A stretch of DNA of 64,000 bases from Bacteroidales bacterium (lineage in GTDB: Bacteria > Bacteroidota > Bacteroidia > Bacteroidales > UBA932). Below, piece after piece: positions 5,051-6,700 of the stretch. The notes beneath the pieces were generated by a model. That model made no database searches. It was not told the DNA's origin and saw nothing but the letters and a program-made list of their open reading frames with translations. Location of the stretch: contig JAFTCB010000062.1 in the NCBI GenBank assembly GCA_017454905.1, forward strand, positions 240,232 through 304,231, in the 5' to 3' direction. Position numbers and translations under genes: made by a program. Each line of letters opens with the position of its first letter. The first letter of the stretch is position 1.

Positions 5051-5110
5051 TCTTTCCGCAGCATCCTCGCTTGCGTGACCAGCAAGTCATTGGCTGACTT
5101 TATTTTAAAG

Positions 5111-5143
5111 AATTACGGGTGGCCTAAAAAGCCACCCGTAATT
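5111..5143. terminator. Bidirectional intrinsic terminator
   Basis: A perfect 13-bp stem, AATTACGGGTGGC / GCCACCCGTAATT, with loop CTAAAAA lies between the convergent reductase (+) and trmB (-) genes. A/T-rich flanks on both sides suit termination in either direction. Confidence 0.85.
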
Positions 5144-5175
5144 CCATATTAAACAGTATTTCAACATTTTACAGG

Positions 5176-6285
5176 TCACGCTCCCTTCAACTTCTGTCGA
5201 CGCGTCTCGGCGGAGTCGTGGCCGAAGAGCAGGCGCGGCCCTTCGGCGGCACGCCATGCCTTGCTGTCGAATTCTTCCGGATCCCGGGGACTTACATACG
5301 GTCCATCGTGGTCGATCACGAATGACAGGTACGTAATCGGGTAGCCCTGCTCCAGGAACAGCTTTTCGTAGAATGTCTGCACCTCCCGCGTCACCGGCGG
5401 AATCTCCGGAGTAGAATCAGCCGGAGCGGCAGTCGCCCCGGAAAACCGTGCCACCCTCGGCATCGTAAGAGGGGGGACCGCAAGCGAAGCGCAGCGGTGG
5501 GGTCCGACGGAGGAGGACGTTTTCATGGGTGAGCTGCCGGACGGCGCTACTTCGGAGATTCCGTACAGATCCGTGGTGTGGGCCAGGATGCGCAGGTTGT
5601 TGGCGCGGCAGACAGCCAGGGTGTATTCGTGCAGGAAGCGCGAGTCGGTCTTGAGGTGGACGATGCCGCCCGGCCGCAGGAAACTGCGGTAACGCTCCAG
5701 GAAGAGCGGAGACGACAGGCGGGAATTCTCGCTGCGGAACTGCGGGTCGGAGAAGGTCAGCCAGACCTCGGAGACTTCGCCCGGCGCAAAAAAGGCCGTG
5801 ATGAATTCCACGCGGGTCCGCAGGAAGGCCACGTTCGGCAGGCGGTGCTCCGACGCATACTTCGCTCCCTTCCACAACCGCGCCCCCTTGATATCCACGC
5901 CGATATAATTCTGCTCCAGATTCCGCTCCGCAAGGGCGATCGTATACTCCCCCTTCCCGCATCCCAGCTCCAGGACGATATTGCATTTGCCGGGTGCTGC
6001 GGAATCGGCAGTCGCCTCAGAAAACCGTAGCCGCCCTCGGCTCGTAAGAGGGAGGGGCCCGCCGCTTTGCGGTGGGAAGGGTCCGGCATCGCCGGACGTT
6101 TTCTGAGGCGAGCTGCCGTGAAGCGAAGCATCCGGCAAACCCGCAAAAAATTGGTTCCAGTGGCCTTTGACGGCGTGGTCGCGCAGGTGGAAGTAGCCGT
6201 CGGCGAGGAGTTCCTGCGCCGAGGGCTGCAGGAGGCAGGAGAACGTCTCGTTCTCCGCGAATTTACGCAATTTATCGTGTCCCAT
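5176..6285 (-). CDS. trmB: tRNA (guanine-N7)-methyltransferase with two in-frame palindromic insertions
   Basis: 369 residues from ATG 6285 (MGHDKLRKFAENETF); longer in-frame starts run back into gldH. TrmB makes m7G46 in tRNA using SAM. Visible motifs are ELGCGKGEYT (SAM site), YIGVDIKGARLWKGAK, FLRTRVEFI, WLTFSDPQ, HLKTDS and DLYG. The family usually has about 220-250 residues; the excess comes from two related insertions, residues about 57-94 and 249-287, coming from the 113-bp elements at 6006-6118 and 5427-5539. The first precedes the SAM motif and the second follows DLYG, so the catalytic core stays contiguous. The family TFPDP motif reads TFSDP here, a possibly functional change. It is the last gene of a long overlapping operon and overlaps gldH by 14 bp. 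Confidence 0.88.
   Translation of the reverse strand: MGHDKLRKFAENETFSCLLQPSAQELLADGYFHLRDHAVKGHWNQFFAGLPDASLHGSSPQKTSGDAGPFPPQSGGPLPLTSRGRLRFSEATADSAAPGKCNIVLELGCGKGEYTIALAERNLEQNYIGVDIKGARLWKGAKYASEHRLPNVAFLRTRVEFITAFFAPGEVSEVWLTFSDPQFRSENSRLSSPLFLERYRSFLRPGGIVHLKTDSRFLHEYTLAVCRANNLRILAHTTDLYGISEVAPSGSSPMKTSSSVGPHRCASLAVPPLTMPRVARFSGATAAPADSTPEIPPVTREVQTFYEKLFLEQGYPITYLSFVIDHDGPYVSPRDPEEFDSKAWRAAEGPRLLFGHDSAETRRQKLKGA
5427..5539 (-). repeat. 113-bp in-frame palindromic element, copy A (inside trmB)
   Basis: The ends are inverted repeats: CGGCAGTCGCCCCGGAAAAC (5427-5446) faces GTTTTCATGGGTGAGCTGCC (5519-5538, next base G). The internal sequence carries further GC-rich inverted repeats. It matches copy B (6006-6118) in length, orientation and reading frame. 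Both encode a peptide of the form GSSPxKTS...GP...PLT...RFSxATA. It lies in the C-terminal part of trmB. Confidence 0.8.
6006..6118 (-). repeat. 113-bp in-frame palindromic element, copy B (inside trmB)
   Basis: The terminal inverted repeats are CGGCAGTCGCCTCAGAAAAC (6006-6025) and a 21-nt right arm at 6098-6118 that pairs with it apart from one extra base. Internal hairpins are CCCTC/GAGGG (6034-6052), CCCGCCGC/GCGGTGGG around TTT (6058-6076), and GTCCGGC-ATC-GCCGGAC (6081-6097). The whole would fold as a cloverleaf-like set of stems. It keeps the trmB frame open. Confidence 0.82.
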
Positions 6286-6700
6286 CTTGCTTCTTGTAAA
6301 TAACGCCGAGCCCCAGGAAATCCTCCCCCACATCCACCGGACGCACGCTCAACTGCCACTGCCCGGCTTCCGCCGGCAGCATCCCGCTGCGGTACCGCTC
6401 CTTCGTTCCCCGGGTATCCACCGACCGCATATACACCGTCTCCGAGAAACCGTTCCCGGACGGAGCCAGCCACTGGACATTCAGCCGCACATTATGGACC
6501 GGCGTCATCCCGACCCGGCTGTAAAACCAGAAATCATAGGCCGCAGTCGTATCCGTCAGCGGCAAAGAAAAGACATACACCCCGTCCCGTGCATCTTCCC
6601 GGCGGATGAACGTCTCCATCCCGTCCGGCTCCGAACAGGCAGGCAGCATCCCGGCCAGGATGCAAAGCGCCAGACAGGCACCTATCCCCCGGGACTTCAT
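6272..6700 (-). CDS. gldH: GldH-family gliding-motility lipoprotein
   Basis: 142 residues. The N-terminus (MKSRGIGACLALCILAG...LPAC) is a lipoprotein signal with the lipidated Cys in LPAC. The body (YDFWFYSRVGMTPVHNVRLNVQWLAPSG, then YRSGMLPAEAGQWQLSVRP) resembles GldH, a lipoprotein first linked to gliding in Flavobacteria but also kept in non-gliding Bacteroidales, typically beside a PSP1-domain gene as here. Its ATG follows the stop of the ricT-like gene with no gap, and its 3' end overlaps trmB by 14 bp, so translation is probably coupled. The function in a probably non-gliding bacterium is unknown. Confidence 0.75.
   Translation of the reverse strand: MKSRGIGACLALCILAGMLPACSEPDGMETFIRREDARDGVYVFSLPLTDTTAAYDFWFYSRVGMTPVHNVRLNVQWLAPSGNGFSETVYMRSVDTRGTKERYRSGMLPAEAGQWQLSVRPVDVGEDFLGLGVIYKKQDGTR

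Follow-up and report, generated by a model that had tools for sequence, protein, structure and literature searches.

An apparently mobile palindromic element carried twice in frame by trmB and scattered through the genes of a Bacteroidales genus

To our knowledge, palindromic sequences that invade genes are known chiefly from Rickettsia and Wolbachia. In the consulted sections of a review, Rickettsia palindromic elements (RPE) are presented as ~150-bp repeats, many of which lie in frame in unrelated genes (PMC10969869), and the consulted part of another paper describes orthologous genes that carry RPE inserts at the same locus (PMC3767692). From the Bacteroidetes, the portions consulted of two further papers report CGTC-tagged REPs (PMC3733652) and a subclass of TnpA_REP, 2.6, found mostly in this group, whose genes stand between atypical secondary structures that recur elsewhere in the genome (PMC6006769). 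Long inverted repeats also occur in coding genes of Nematomorpha mitochondria, where, in the sections consulted, the arms are said to be kept complementary and template switching is discussed (PMC6649704).

The window, which is the whole stretch of 64,000 nucleotides of Bacteroidales DNA that was analyzed here, contains a trmB gene whose open reading frame spans 5176-6333 on the minus strand, with an M-G-H-D start at 6285, and whose product matches Methyltransf_4 (Pfam, E 1.3e-24). The genome of the window, G000 in what follows, presumably belongs to Cryptobacteroides; other G-numbers denote the genomes compared with it, which are draft or metagenome-assembled, and L-numbers denote loci. The earlier note on this DNA had described two related units of equal length, strand, and phase within the gene, and they are real: the units at 5427-5539 and 6006-6118 are 76% identical across all 113 bases (E 1.7e-12, whole-genome DNA search), share strand and phase at a spacing of 579 bp, a multiple of 3, and both begin with CGGCAGTCGCC and finish with GAGCTGCCG. 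They can also be read as peptide, as had been proposed, since the frame is open through both, with no stop in either translation; GSSPMKTS and GSSPQKTS are among the predicted inserted peptides. The extent given for the palindrome held in part, in that the 113-bp units exist but the palindrome is longer, with outer arms of 17 nt at copy 1 and 13 nt at copy 2 (one mismatch; 5986-5998 with 6127-6139), and these arms are unlike between the two insertions. The features are as follows.

5176..6285, minus strand: trmB, tRNA (guanine-N7)-methyltransferase gene with two in-frame palindromic elements (open reading frame, Pfam PF02390, alignment, structure model)
5398..5563, plus strand: insertion 1, whole palindrome including locus-specific arms, in the loop between DLYG and EVQTFYE (inverted repeat, orthologue comparison)
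5398..5414, plus strand: left locus-specific arm of insertion 1 (inverted repeat, 17 nt, 94%)
5547..5563, plus strand: right locus-specific arm of insertion 1 (inverted repeat, 17 nt, 94%)
5427..5539, plus strand: 113-bp repeat unit, copy 1 (repeat search, DNA alignment)
5445..5520, plus strand: conserved core, copy 1 (match to covariance model R1)
5449..5473, plus strand: pseudoknot, copy 1, with stem A 5449-5452/5459-5462 and stem B 5454-5458/5469-5473 (pattern tested by covariation)
5986..6139, plus strand: insertion 2, whole palindrome including locus-specific arms, in the loop upstream of the VLELGCG motif (sequence, orthologue comparison)
5986..5998, plus strand: arm of insertion 2, taken to be the newly made inverted copy (the empty orthologue G014 has nothing that matches it well)
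6127..6139, plus strand: arm of insertion 2 corresponding to sequence native to the host (matched in the empty orthologue G014)
6006..6118, plus strand: 113-bp repeat unit, copy 2 (repeat search, DNA alignment)
6024..6099, plus strand: conserved core, copy 2 (match to covariance model R1)
6029..6052, plus strand: pseudoknot, copy 2, with stem A 6029-6032/6039-6042 and stem B 6034-6038/6048-6052 (covariation-tested pattern)

The unit length of 113 is not a multiple of 3, unlike the net gains at the two TrmB loops, which amount to 150 bp at the first (225 bp versus 75 bp in the empty G088, G131, G103, and G120) and 144 bp at the second (207 bp versus 63 bp in the empty G103). An AlphaFold2 model of the 369-residue protein, built from 21 sequences with a mean pLDDT of 71, predicts that the inserted peptides are disordered loops: pLDDT falls below 50 at residues 54-85, 89-98, and 245-290, so that the inserts (54-98 and 245-290) are almost wholly below this value, and it is mostly ~90 or above in the methyltransferase domain. 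This is what the earlier idea of inserts tolerated as disordered loops predicts. Rfam searches found no family on either copy in the window (E up to 1) and none at four other element loci (E up to 0.1). Between trmB and its convergent neighbor, at 5101-5160, lies a separate strong hairpin (ACGGGTGGC...GCCACCCGT), probably a transcription terminator shared by the two genes, whose weak Rfam matches are all under the family gathering scores.

The unit is widely dispersed. A DNA search returned 10 matches in its own genome at E 2.4e-7 or better, query included, and a covariance model (R1) built from 18 copies extended the count to 14, the weakest at E 0.005 and the two trmB copies among them. Twelve of the 14 lie inside Pfam-recognized genes, 10 different ones, whose short names (such as RlmI and YgiQ) are our reading of the Pfam matches: TrmB (two), an RlmI-like methyltransferase (two, in opposite orientation), an RsmF-like methyltransferase, a SpoU/TrmH-family methyltransferase, an FAD-dependent oxidoreductase, an XerC/D-like integrase, TldD/PmbA, a YgiQ-like radical SAM protein, a UvrD helicase, and DNA polymerase I. 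Of the other two, L066 is spanned by frames of just ~90 amino acids, and L070 by a frame without a Pfam match. Half of the 12 genic copies (L059-L063 and L065) sit in RNA methyltransferase genes, a count taken without a gene-content baseline. What was found is a repeat at the DNA level, one DNA read in either direction in different genes, with 14 genomic copies and with orthologues that are empty, and not a segment confined to trmB and common to all of its orthologues; a protein-level repeat without DNA similarity is likewise rejected by the DNA match of the two units and by the 14 copies.

In the genus, with a cut-off of E 1e-4, the covariance model found one or more copies in 87 of the 121 genomes sampled, with at least 947 copies in the 121, a lower bound because at most 39 candidates were scored per genome. 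Across the order, matches were seen in 4 of 198 sampled genomes, namely, our own, one from another genus of the same family, and two from genera of other families, with weaker scores; G298, from one of the latter two genera, has ten copies. A pattern scan of named genomes gave at least 120 stretches, and the 80 listed with their records are all titled Bacteroidales or Bacteroidia, many from ruminant samples. Carriage by phages or plasmids was considered and rejected, as an exact-pattern scan of viral contigs and a search of phage and plasmid collections with a 180-bp query gave no match. We saw no gene of its own within the ~110- to 150-bp unit, which is apparently a small, mobile, non-autonomous palindromic element scattered in the genus.

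How the element sits in coding DNA was judged mainly by protein conservation. Stop-free frames of at least 200 amino acids cover 74% of 112 matches and 86% of random points, which indicates that coding DNA excludes the element only mildly; a frame of this kind is not by itself evidence of a gene. A codon-usage test on the same 112 matches had low power (28 same-strand copies, 21 in phase, 7 stop-free, and 84 undecided, mixed, or at an edge), and its place was taken by a phase test on 59 copies at loci that a relative shares; of these, 48 are flanked on both sides by strongly conserved protein sequence. In 46 of these 48 both flanks lie on one strand; 40 of the 46 are in phase, and all 40 in-phase copies are stop-free and hence readable as part of the protein, copies at orthologous loci not being independent in these counts. 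The six out-of-phase copies come from two loci. The remaining two of the 48 (L063 and L276) were assigned opposite strands, though a reading of the TrmH-family gene shows both in frame, and 11 of the 59 had been set aside because one flank was weakly conserved, among them L345, in phase with two stops. With wider, 360-nt windows, 51 of 59 copies were in phase and 31 stop-free; we think that stops in windows of this size are often gene ends, which is why narrower windows were used. Genes hit in relatives, again named by our reading of Pfam matches, include RNase R-like, DnaX-like, M16 peptidase, MiaB/RimO-like, and PmbA/TldD genes, and 10 of the 20 frames in relatives have no Pfam match, several being alternative frames over one copy.

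The same loops are empty, filled, or reversed in related species. Among eight relatives searched for TrmB, five (G088, G131, G103, G120, and G140) have an ordinary-length protein of 271-283 amino acids with neither insert, G081 and G142 have both, and G014 lacks the first and carries the second in reversed orientation. In six species, loop 1 of the RlmI-like gene holds one element shared by G000 and G088 and another insert in G131 and is empty in G081, G103, and G120, and loop 2 holds different inserts in G000, G088, and G081 and is empty in G131, G103, and G120, with all loop lengths multiples of 3. The loop of the TrmH-family gene could be displayed in 10 of 21 genomes searched; eight are filled, with lengths that are all multiples of 3, and G015 is empty. 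A short loop was observed in the TrmH-family gene of G094 (L367), where a 173-bp stretch, not a multiple of 3, runs into a stop and represents decay, loss of an insert, or an assembly error. In trmB of G142 (L240), the first-loop stretch measures 205 bp, compared with 75 bp where relatives are empty, and the two lengths do not differ by a multiple of 3. It also holds an apparent nested palindrome; the gene appears frameshifted, by what appears to be decay or an assembly error. Separately, TrmB orthologues at L047, L033, L031, and L032 have other peptides in the same loops (SARNDNSVISTERREW, RPERSVVEKS, and VISSEAEKS), which may belong to a second translated palindromic family at the same landing site.

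Over 15 loci, 19 of 42 orthologous pairs of copies are opposite in orientation. Core identity is 0.85 for pairs in the same orientation and 0.82 for flipped pairs, barely above the 0.81 of non-orthologous copies, so we read most orthologous occupancy as independent insertion that has struck the same genes and loops repeatedly and disfavor shared ancestry for most of it; a few pairs with identity of 0.92 or more may reflect shared descent or recent spread. Insertion points in RsmF lie apart between species. In the loop region of RsmF (L059 and L277), several different palindromes, including a CCCGT-type variant of the element, are piled up in neighboring species.

The core of the element was compared across 34 distinct copies drawn from DNA-search hits, protein-homology loci, and own-genome hits (of 37 pattern hits, two that covered the inner part of the element and one duplicate core were left out, and two were trimmed to register). 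It contains two interlocked stems: stem A, for example GTGCC/GGCAC, and stem B, in which the loop CCCTC pairs with a downstream GAGGG. Standard pairs fill 98.7% of the cells of the two stems, changes on both sides occur in 49 cells compared with 16.5 in shuffles, none of 500 shuffles reaches the covariation score of the stems, and slid versions of the register are just 32-59% paired. Two of five covariation measures fail to beat shuffles, these being pairs with a double change (4 versus 3.0; 29 of 500) and further pair types (7 versus 9.2). Stem B offers compensatory examples in CCCTC/GAGGG, CCCGT/ACGGG, and CCCAT/ATGGG, and outside the pattern-selected loci 162 of 170 pattern hits have both variable stem B pairs, compared with 91 when shuffled, in a set that includes some unrelated hits. 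Judged by these substitutions, the core is an H-type pseudoknot kept by compensatory changes, and this covariation implies that a single strand is under selection or is copied as such.

Outside the core, each copy tends to carry arms that match each other rather than those of other copies. In 100 copies from 28 genus genomes, picked by hand from the top-scoring places and not at random, the flanks of the same copy pair with a mean score of 43 versus 18 for flanks of different copies; 87 score above the 99th percentile for mismatched flanks taken from other genomes, and 76 above that for mismatched flanks within the same genome. In the close group, a fixed-offset test gave weaker results for the outer arms, with 17, 17, 15, and 5 of 50 copies above the 95th percentile at offsets 22, 26, 30, and 34, we think because stem lengths vary. 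At two loci the native arm could be identified. In loop 2 of the RlmI-like gene, the empty G131 has TTGAATTCCGG, and G000 has the same sequence, an exact 11-mer, plus an inverted copy beyond the element. In TrmB loop 1 (insertion 2), G014, which is empty there, has TTGCCGGGTGC, and G000 has the same with one change, plus an inverted copy that retains the G014 form of the changed base; 52 of 3,000 random 13-mers match as well as this arm, and the TrmB case alone is therefore moderate. The inverted counterpart of the native arm is absent from both empty orthologues (TrmB in G014 and the RlmI-like gene in G131). The RlmI-like site that G000 and G088 have in common shows joint change of its two arms, which read GTTTCAGA/TCTGAAAC in G000 and ATTTCAGA/TCTGAAAT in G088.

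Candidate enzymes were sought by co-occurrence. Y1 proteins (PF01797) are present in 76 of the 87 element-bearing genomes and 13 of the 34 genomes lacking the element (p 1.5e-7) and, among genomes at least 90% complete, in 37 of 39 and 4 of 14 (p 2.8e-6), both values being uncorrected for shared ancestry. Two genomes with the element, G142 (19 copies) and G013 (13 copies), had no detected Y1 protein at 83% and 70% completeness. Reverse transcriptase shows no such association (25 of 87 versus 12 of 34, p 0.51; near-complete genomes, 17 of 39 versus 6 of 14, p 1.0), and G015, with 28 copies and 98% completeness, has no PF00078 match; we reject it as the mobilizer. G000 has three Y1 matches, two of which exceed the Pfam cut-off. 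By our reading of their sequences, the Y1 proteins of G000 appear to have His-hydrophobic-His and tyrosine motifs, which the consulted part of PMC6006769 describes for such proteins. None of 23 Y1-bearing loci held a convincing element (best match E 0.35, with ~0.5 chance matches expected in 20 of the loci searched), and none was seen at two more. At one of the G000 loci (L236), a divergent Y1 gene has on either side a copy of another, AT-richer hairpin (712-783 and 1878-1921), one a perfect 20-bp hairpin of TTACGAAATAACCTTCGGAG with its inverse and the other an imperfect 34-nt relative, an arrangement that is REP-like and unlike the trmB element.

Our results lead us to favor, with moderate confidence, a non-autonomous, RPE-like coding palindrome that is translated as a disordered loop, probably spreads as single-stranded DNA, and has arms made by fold-back, with Y1/HUH proteins as the candidate mobilizer. 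The element would move as folded single-stranded DNA, most likely with a TnpA_REP-type (RAYT) Y1/HUH transposase acting on it in trans. As the element inserts, or afterwards, the strand being synthesized would fold back on the hairpin and copy ~10-20 nt of neighboring host sequence in inverted form, giving X - element - X'. Insertions that break the frame would be purged by selection, and those in frame in disordered loops would persist. We infer the Y1/HUH single-strand route rather than read it from the loci, since none of the Y1 loci searched is convincingly flanked by the element and the co-occurrence is uncorrected for ancestry. More tentatively, we speculate that this is an undescribed mode of insertion, a target-site inverted duplication, in which integration of a single-stranded, pseudoknotted element copies 10-20 nt of target inverted to the far side; every copy would then arrive with a host-made stem, enter coding loops either way around, and leave an in-frame, translatable insert.

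The arms could also have a later origin. Some as yet unnamed enzyme might insert the element cleanly, with the arms growing afterwards by template-switch repair at the hairpin (quasi-palindrome correction), one flank being repeatedly copied onto the other. We regard this as rather unlikely, although it would suit arms that stay complementary while changing between species, as at the shared RlmI-like site, and that vary in length and quality, and template switching is what the consulted sections on hairworm mitochondrial coding palindromes discuss (PMC6649704). It sits less easily with the presence of arms on most copies (87 of 100 beyond the 99th percentile), among them pairs with identical cores in different species, which may be recent (g5 and g8). 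A pseudoknot with compensatory changes might instead be an RNA signal, the transcript being reverse-transcribed at a nick and the cDNA folding back to copy the flank, a process that the X-element-X' geometry would also suit; the lack of any relation between reverse transcriptase and the element, with p values of 0.51 and 1.0, and the example of G015 make such RNA-mediated spread very improbable to us.

The preferred single-stranded DNA reading also has to be weighed against two proposals in which the hairpin serves the host gene or escapes translation. If the hairpins were immobile and had been domesticated to regulate mRNA or protein function, one could point to the six of 12 genic copies in RNA-modification genes (TrmB and the RlmI-like gene with two each, the RsmF-like gene, and the TrmH family), but orthologues in close relatives are empty or have different copies, some in opposite orientation, many unrelated gene functions are hit, and neither position, orientation, nor arms are conserved across species at the loci compared, so that we consider this highly implausible. 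We give still less credence to removal of the insert before or during translation, by self-splicing or by ribosome bypassing as for mitochondrial byp elements: the strong hairpin and long outer stem would suit it, but the elements have no Rfam match at the thresholds used, and the absence of stops in all 40 in-phase copies would be needless if the insert were removed and so argues against it.

These findings add a Bacteroidales family with hundreds of copies in one genus, in which the same loop is empty, filled, refilled, or reversed in sister species. Such sites amount to many natural experiments, which makes it testable how such elements move, why coding sequence tolerates them, and whether new protein loops arise. 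The arms specific to each locus also suggest that insertion or repair proceeds by a distinct mechanism, and Y1 proteins become a candidate enzyme through their correlation with the element. The pseudoknot core, the host-derived arms, and the genus-wide spread go beyond the earlier note, and its remark that it knew of no such description in Bacteroidales agrees with our search of the open-access literature, which found none; most subscription papers lie outside that scope.

The parallel drawn there with Rickettsia palindromic elements is apt for behavior, the likeness being one of description and not of sequence comparison. Like the RPE and Wolbachia palindromic elements in the consulted sections of PMC10969869 and PMC3767692, the element is of a ~100- to 150-bp, palindromic, multicopy kind, in frame in unrelated genes and read as peptide; it matches them in dispersal (14 G000 copies, 12 of them in 10 Pfam-recognized genes) and in open, in-frame insertion (40 of 46 same-strand copies in phase, all 40 stop-free). 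It differs in its host, which belongs to a distant phylum, in its covarying pseudoknot core and host-derived inverted arms, which those sections do not mention for RPE, and in that orthologous sites mostly hold different copies in either orientation. With REP/REPIN and RAYT (TnpA_REP) systems it shares short palindromes without a gene of their own and co-occurrence with Y1/HUH proteins, but REPs are 20-40 bp and extragenic by name, whereas the element is ~110-150 bp (unit 113 bp) and mostly intragenic in its own genome, and RAYT genes are flanked by their repeat, whereas the element was not found beside the Y1 genes examined. Compared with the coding palindromes of Nematomorpha, it has a common core between the arms, and none is described there in the sections consulted (PMC6649704). 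Finally, it resembles MITEs, which the consulted part of PMC10969869 presents as small dispersed repeats that are non-autonomous, have inverted ends, and are presumably mobilized in trans, and it stands apart from them in that its flanks are inverted copies of host sequence.
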